Source of the DNA: Candidatus Endomicrobiellum mastotermitis
Lineage (GTDB): Bacteria; Elusimicrobiota; Endomicrobiia; Endomicrobiales; Endomicrobiaceae
Reading direction: 5' to 3'
Assembly (NCBI GenBank): GCA_031272445.1
Contig: JAISTT010000005.1
Location: forward strand, 1-52,236
DNA: 52,236 nt
Part shown: positions 51,192 to 52,236 of the stretch, piece by piece
Numbering within the stretch: the first letter of the stretch is position 1
Layout: every line of letters starts with the position of its first letter
The notes under the pieces: model-generated
Told to the model about the DNA's origin: nothing
The model's input: only the letters and a program-made list of their open reading frames with translations
Database searches by the model: none
Program-made: the position numbers and the translations under genes

Positions 51192-51695
51192 ATGAATAAA
51201 AGGGGGAATAAACAAATTATAGAGATAAATGACGCTTATTTCATGCTTCAAGCTATAAAAGAAGCTCATAAAGCAGGTACCGCAAAAGAAATACCTATAG
51301 GAGCAGTTATAATCCAAGATAGGAAAATAATAGCAAGAGGTTTCAATAAATGCATTTCATTATCCGATCCTACAGCTCATGCCGAAAATGTTGCGTTGAG
51401 GAAAGCTGCAAAAAAATTAAAGAATTATCGCTTGAATAATTGTTCCATATATATTACAATAGAGCCTTGTATAATGTGCATAGGAGCTTTAATAAACGCT
51501 AGAATAGAAAGAATCATTTTCGGTGCATTTGATAAAAGAATTGGTACATGCAAGAATATATATAAAACAGTATGTACAAAACTTAATCACAGAATAGAAA
51601 TAAAAGGCGGAGAAGAAAAATATTTAAGTACCAAATGCGCAGATATTGTTAAAAATTTTTTTAAAGAAAAAAGAATTAAAAAACAAAAAAAGTGA
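51192..51695 (+). CDS. tadA: tRNA-specific adenosine deaminase
   Basis: 167 residues, cytidine-deaminase fold. TAHAENVAL has the zinc-ligand His63 and proton-shuttling Glu65; EPCIMCIGAL has the two cysteine ligands (C93, C96). It deaminates A34 to inosine in tRNA-Arg(ACG). FGAFDKRIGTCKN near the C-terminus is the usual TadA segment. The basic tail (KEKRIKKQKK) is slightly longer than usual. No clear ribosome site precedes the ATG. The tmRNA gene begins about 30 bases after the stop, in the same direction. Confidence 0.93.
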   Translation: MNKRGNKQIIEINDAYFMLQAIKEAHKAGTAKEIPIGAVIIQDRKIIARGFNKCISLSDPTAHAENVALRKAAKKLKNYRLNNCSIYITIEPCIMCIGALINARIERIIFGAFDKRIGTCKNIYKTVCTKLNHRIEIKGGEEKYLSTKCADIVKNFFKEKRIKKQKK

Positions 51696-51813
51696 TATTT
51701 ACTAAATTAATTTTTTTTGTGGGAGGGGGTGAATAGGTCTCGACGAAAACGATTGATGTAATGACAGCAGGTCGGAGTTAGTCGATGGCTCCGTAAAAAT
51801 CGACTAAAAAATA

Positions 51814-51948
51814 AACAACGATGATTTAACTTCAACACAAAACTCCAAAATTCCTATTTTAGGAACGCTTTTGTTAGGCTTTTTCTTATGGATAGAAAAA
51901 AAATTCAAAGGCTTCAAGAATCTTGGAGCAGTGCCAATGGCTGCTTAA
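51814..51948 (+). other. tmRNA tag reading frame, apparently about 44 codons
   Basis: Seven to ten bases after pseudoknot 1, where the resume codon is expected, the frame reads N-N-D-D-L-T-S-T-Q-N. It stays open through a hydrophobic stretch (ILGTLLLGFFLWI) and a basic part to end GAVPMAA and TAA (51946-51948). The start resembles the usual A-N-D-E, and the MAA end resembles the LAA degron read by ClpXP. Usual tags are about 8-35 residues. The exact resume codon (51814 or 51817) is uncertain. Confidence 0.65.
51843..51928 (+). repeat. 86-nt inverted-repeat-bounded segment inside the tmRNA tag region
   Basis: CTCCAAAATTC (51843-51853) pairs with GAATCTTGGAG (51918-51928) at 10 of 11 positions. 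Inside are smaller hairpins: TTCCTA/TAGGAA (51851-51865) and TTTTTCT/AGAAAAA. The segment leaves the reading frame open across its flanks, so it may be a palindromic insert analogous to Rickettsia palindromic elements. I found no second copy in the window by eye. Confidence 0.5.
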
Positions 51949-52236
51949 AGCAGTCACGTTTTATCTTAAGACACCTGCTATGAGAATAAAACGAAAAAGA
52001 GCAGGTTAGTTTTAAACTGTTTGTATCGTCAGTTTAAAGTGAAATTGAAATGATACCGGTTTATAACGTAATCTTGTCTGGAGACAACGTTATAAATGAG
52101 AAAAATTTCCAGACTAAACCTGTAGTGGTCTTACTGAAACATTTTCGGACGCGGGTTCGATTCCCGCCACCTCCATTTCATAATAGTTACGAAAGTATTT
52201 GTTAGGCAAGTACACTACTATAATTTTGATATTACC

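Follow-up and report, generated by a model that had tools for sequence, protein, structure and literature searches.

Candidatus Endomicrobiellum belongs to the Elusimicrobiota and comprises endosymbionts living inside the flagellates of termite guts. In the stretch of Candidatus Endomicrobiellum mastotermitis DNA analysed here (the window; 52,236 nt, contig JAISTT010000005.1 of assembly GCA_031272445.1), the gene for tmRNA carries an 86-nt block (51843..51928) bounded by an inverted repeat, which raises the question of where this block came from and what it does. The sequence-only reading had proposed either a selfish element, akin to the palindromic elements of Rickettsia, or a new structural domain of the RNA. 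Rickettsia palindromic elements are inverted-repeat blocks that sit within genes, keep the reading frame and occur in many dispersed genomic copies. In what follows, G000 denotes the genome carrying the window, other G numbers denote the genomes of relatives, and all window features lie on the forward strand.

The tmRNA gene and its tag

The ssrA gene spans 51725..52178 (454 nt) and matched positions 1-374 of the Rfam tmRNA model RF00023 without omission (144.9 bits, E 2.7e-58), i.e. the tRNA-like domain and the pseudoknots are present, while an ARAGORN run did not call a tmRNA at 51725-52178. A tadA-like gene (51192..51695) lies directly 5' of ssrA, as it also does in relatives. In the Rfam alignment, a large unmodelled insert falls within the tag region, so the RNA is indeed longer than usual at the block. 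The tag reading frame (51817..51948) consists of 43 codons (51817-51945) followed by the stop codon TAA (51946-51948), stays open across the block, as had been read from the sequence, and encodes the 43-aa tag NDDLTSTQNSKIPILGTLLLGFFLWIEKKFKGFKNLGAVPMAA. The block thus makes up the central part of the tag-coding sequence in a tmRNA of the working type. The resume codon is AAC (Asn), immediately 3' of ATAAAC, in the same register as GCA after AUAGUC in Escherichia coli and as GCA or GCT (Ala) after ATAAAC in G030 and G038. Asn (AAC) is the resume codon of most tags of the genus, as at 51817-51819 of the window, and is absent from the resume residues listed by Burks et al., i.e. Ala, Gly, Asp, Arg, Ser and Glu (PMC1168896).

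The C-terminus of the tag, ...VPMAA, fits the small hydrophobic ...AA end of ClpXP-type ssrA tags, and a short helix 5 (51939..51955; GGCTGC / GCAGTC) surrounds the stop codon, as seen in the Rfam alignment and the sequence. SmpB is encoded at C1:25033-25455 of G000, so that both an in-frame tag and SmpB, as expected of a tmRNA, are present. The RNA therefore shares with canonical one-piece tmRNAs (E. coli ANDENYALAA type) the tRNA-like domain, the pseudoknots, a leader of the AUAAAC type, a helix 5 around the stop codon and the small hydrophobic ...AA end, but differs from them in having 43 instead of about 10 codons, an Asn resume codon, an internal hydrophobic run with basic residues and an extra hairpin in the ORF.

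The tmRNA occupies part of the last 500 bases of the window and its 3' end falls 58 bases short of the contig end, a position at which an assembly artefact might be suspected. We regard this as practically excluded, as homologous tags lie inside contigs of 592 kb (G061) and 238 kb (G026) from independent assemblies.

The smallest genomes, G016, G030 and G033 (L056, L057 and L058), have tmRNAs of 270-307 nt, in which pseudoknots 2-4 are apparently lost or reduced.

A tag-internal hairpin shared across the family

The tags of 65 tmRNAs from the phylum Elusimicrobiota were compared. Outside the order Endomicrobiales, tags such as ANTYAYAA, with 8-9 residues, are frequent; the range is 18-30 aa in other genera of the Endomicrobiaceae and 14-50 aa within the genus Endomicrobiellum. 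At the upper end of this range, G019 (L060) has a tag of about 49 residues with an internal tandem duplication of about 45 nt (KLEKVKGQAKMLSD / NLEEVEGQAKMLPA); the 5' part of its tmRNA is missing and tadA sequence is fused to pseudoknot 1, by misassembly or deletion. G032 (L048) has a strongly structured 50-residue tag (z -3.1) with a PLFA end, in a genome that is 95% complete and without clpX and clpP.

The common tag of the genus has 23 residues, NDKFVPMQSVKPFMGFGAMPIAA, and its ORF folds as two hairpins. Hairpin 1 sits at the resume codon (AACGAT...ATCGTT, with the variants AACAA...TTGTT and AACATT...AATGTT), and hairpin 2 (e.g. AGCGTTAAACC-loop-GGTTTTGGCGC) immediately precedes the ...MPIAA end. 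Mean fold z values were -1.66 for 35 genus tags against dinucleotide shuffles, -2.49 for 13 tags from other genera of Endomicrobiaceae, and -1.94 for 33 genus tags with synonymous recodings of their own peptides as control; the recoding control may be inflated because G+C content is higher in the tmRNA than in the genes from which codon usage was taken, a bias that leaves the dinucleotide control unaffected. In an ungapped set of nine tags with 23 codons each, 92.8% of the standard pairs possible in the two hairpins are formed, compared with 27-40% after sliding by one to three columns, and double-sided changes number 10 compared with 4.0 in shuffles, a count reached by 0 of 500 shuffles, which is no strict probability because the nine sequences are related. 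Base pairing within the tag-coding region has precedents in helix m of E. coli, based on energy prediction only, and in helices m1 and m2 of Caulobacter (PMC1168896). Compared with helix m, for which support in E. coli was only weak (PMC1168896), hairpin 2 is backed by covariation and, in one clade, has a large coding insert in its loop.

The inverted repeat of the block corresponds to the arms of hairpin 2. Its left arm (51843..51853; CTCCAAAATTC) and right arm (51918..51928; GAATCTTGGAG) form 10 of 11 pairs, exactly as first described. By itself, the repeat is within chance and proves nothing: when the tag region is shuffled with its dinucleotides preserved, 15% of the shuffles contain an 11-bp repeat with no more than one mismatch, and the tag-region fold of G000 reaches a z of only -1.1 to -1.5. 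That the hairpin exceeds chance follows from the relatives, as the related Endomicrobiaceae tags, mostly of 18-28 aa, have a covarying hairpin at the same site with a loop of 4-7 nt, and the left arm is homologous to AACTTCAA of G024 and G061 and to CACTTCAA of G067. Hairpin 2 is carried by tags across the Endomicrobiaceae and predates the insert in its loop.

Within the expanded form, 10 of 11 pairs are retained in each of G000, G061 and G026 (in G061, AACTTCAA / TTGGAGC, like G024); five changes are one-sided, two are double-sided, and an A-C mismatch is common to all three. An earlier strict-identity reading of the inverted repeat as unconserved was dropped once wobble pairs and double changes were counted. 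The retention is equalled by 54 of 500 shuffles, which is weak alone and comes from only three sequences. In G000 the fold prediction includes the closing stem, with a pair probability of about 0.7; the minimum-energy fold predicted for G061 or G026 does not contain it.

The kept arm complementarity, together with the family-wide selection on tag hairpins, could indicate that the block is purely an RNA domain whose fold is retained while the peptide is incidental. This is very unlikely, since no common fold within the loop is predicted among G000, G061 and G026, whereas hydropathy is common to all, and the fold of G000 has a z of just -0.87 against synonymous recodings. The earlier idea of a new structural domain therefore holds only in part: the arms do belong to a structure, namely the family-wide tag hairpin, and the novelty is the hydrophobic tag extension encoded by its loop.

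No evidence of a mobile element

The inverted-repeat ends, the preserved frame and the existence of insert-free relatives are all shared with, or would suit, a selfish palindromic element of the Rickettsia kind inserted in frame. When the 86-nt block was searched against its own genome and 40 congeners, however, only the tmRNA itself was found, all other matches scoring at most 37 bits, and the absence of copies applies to assembled DNA only because the assemblies are drafts (G000 is 86% complete). A search with the tag peptide in these genomes matched the tmRNA tags of two relatives, G061 (E 3e-9) and G026 (E 0.001), with three further matches at E >0.1 only, i.e. no source copy at the protein level. 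In addition, the sites without the insert in relatives retain the arms as a short-loop hairpin and no arm-free empty site was seen, so that, unlike Rickettsia palindromic elements, the block is unrepeated in its genome and its arms occur without it. The nearest relatives inherit a diverged block in the same tmRNA: three of the four have the insert, and with no copies elsewhere this comes close to the pattern that the sequence-only reading itself had set against a selfish origin. As far as the incomplete assemblies reach, we therefore reject the mobile element, for which next to no likelihood is left.

A second palindromic insert was noticed in another family's tmRNA, i.e. 114 nt with long terminal inverted repeats in pseudoknot 1 (G038:C20:126207-126320, L043); as a repeat element it was likewise rejected, being present in a single copy in its genome.

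The expanded loop encodes a hydrophobic segment

In G000, the loop of hairpin 2 (51854..51917) is about 60 nt, or 20 codons, longer than in the 23-aa tags of G015, G024, G067 and others. It encodes most of a 15-residue hydrophobic run, IPILGTLLLGFFLWI (51850..51894; mean Kyte-Doolittle hydropathy 2.27), followed directly by the basic stretch EKKFKGFK (51895..51918). The corresponding peptides are IPILGTLLLGFFLWI-EKKFKGFK in G000, VFVSGMFLVGLFFGM-RKKSKGF in G061, ILGLGMFLLALLGIK-NGFKDFR in G026 and, more distantly, SLAGLGGVMLALLAL-RTRKTNTKR in G006. Among the 65 tags, a mean hydropathy of at least 2.1 over 15 residues is confined to these four (2.15-2.27), the next best being 1.58, and a run like theirs is absent from the other 61 tags.

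Phylogenetically, the four carriers and G001 form a clade with 100/100 support in a tree of FtsH, used in place of rpoB, which was missed in half of the genomes: no rpoB turned up in 21 of the 41 genus genomes, including G000, G001, G026 and G061, owing to contig gaps, masking or a search artefact. G001, nested within the carrier clade, has a 22-residue tag without the hydrophobic segment, for which loss is the simplest reading. Its junction falls between CTTCAAA and CTTCGAA, two motifs that are near-identical in G061 and make a deletion between short direct repeats plausible. As G001 lacks the insert, it is dispensable in this genome.

Whether the peptide is under selection was approached through the divergence of its coding sequence. 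The hydrophobic segments of G000, G061 and G026 share only 52-58% of their nucleotides and are all still hydrophobic, which suggests selection on the peptide. In neutral simulations of the same divergence without stop codons, 3-8% of the runs for any one lineage kept the hydropathy, and well below 1% did so for the lineages jointly; the test covers few lineages, uses tip-to-tip differences and takes an ungapped alignment into which G006 fits poorly. Over the tag, dN/dS was 0.28-0.62, from 43 codons and a protein-guided alignment that biases the value downward, and neutrality was not rejected (P 0.07-0.65) when, separately, the whole tag was simulated with a window of 19 residues. Combined, these tests lean towards selection on the peptide, short of proof.

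The main rival is a neutral expansion of the loop, in which tag length is loosely constrained in shrinking genomes, the loop grew by duplication or slippage, and T-rich DNA codes for Phe, Leu and Ile by chance. Consistent with this, tag lengths within the genus run from 14 to 50 aa, the tag of G019 contains a tandem duplication, 8% of random ORFs of the same composition are equally hydropathic, the segment is lost in G001 and the simulation probabilities per lineage are just 0.03-0.08. Against it, all four carriers have kept the hydrophobic run and the basic residues despite heavy nucleotide change, and the other 61 tags lack the run. We consider a neutral origin possible, if somewhat doubtful.

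Proteases and a possible membrane route

SmpB, ClpP, FtsH and Lon are intact in G000. Its clpX, which lies between the intact genes clpP and lon, is a pseudogene (G000:C6:40957-41955, L155) with numerous stops and frameshifts, so the intact pair of ClpX and ClpP that goes with a ClpXP-type tag is lacking. Both clpX and clpP are intact in G026 and G061, so the loss of ClpX was not what triggered the insert.

Neither clpX nor clpP was seen in G017, G032, G006, G028 and others. As a separate observation, some tags lack the AA end, i.e. VV in G028, VA in G008 and G014, and FA in G032; such ends are commoner without clpX (4/10 vs 2/24; Fisher p 0.048, uncorrected for relatedness and completeness).

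Membrane-associated products of trans-translation are degraded by FtsH, and the Mollicutes, which are without ClpXP, altered their tags (PMC3985003, PMC7246954). On these grounds, we propose that the hydrophobic loop extension probably directs rescued proteins to the membrane or to a membrane protease such as FtsH. In the clade of G000, the apical loop of hairpin 2 has grown by about 20 codons, gaining the 15-residue hydrophobic run and the basic residues, and a rescued protein would receive A-NDDLTSTQNSK-(hydrophobic helix)-(basic)-NLGAVPMAA. The helix may then bring tagged proteins to the inner membrane, or serve as a hydrophobic degron for FtsH (or Lon), and this route may supplement or replace recognition of the ...AA end by ClpXP. 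The Lon-specific long tags of Mollicutes, as far as Gur and Sauer (2008) are cited in PMC7246954 and PMC3985003, offer a parallel in their unusual length, the reduced genomes and the loss of ClpXP, but the tag of G000 ends in PMAA, not in an NYAFA-type end, its run is internal and its insert predates the loss of ClpX.

Several points speak against this mechanism. A run of 15 residues is short for a membrane helix, with a 19-residue mean hydropathy of 1.35 vs the usual 1.6; for a cytosolic protein with a tail anchor, basic residues behind the predicted helix conflict with the positive-inside rule; and G001 appears to have lost the segment. The most specific version, in which the tag is a membrane-targeting degron whose helix inserts into the membrane and hands the protein over to FtsH, allowing the endosymbiont to manage without ClpX, is rather unlikely as a whole.

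Implications for trans-translation in the Endomicrobiaceae

Searches of open-licence literature returned nothing direct on hydrophobic or transmembrane tmRNA tags or on the tmRNA of Endomicrobium. The block is genuine and, for a known RNA, unusual: a new variant of the tmRNA tag inside an older RNA hairpin. In the usual case, the tmRNA tag is a soluble degron of short length. One carrying a segment that resembles a membrane helix would, if true, represent an apparently new disposal route for rescued proteins, connecting the rescue of ribosomes with proteolysis at the membrane in bacteria whose ClpXP is being lost. Insert-bearing and insert-free relatives permit a direct comparison, and the family as such provides a clear natural case of dual coding, in which RNA hairpins and a peptide degron are written on the same nucleotides.
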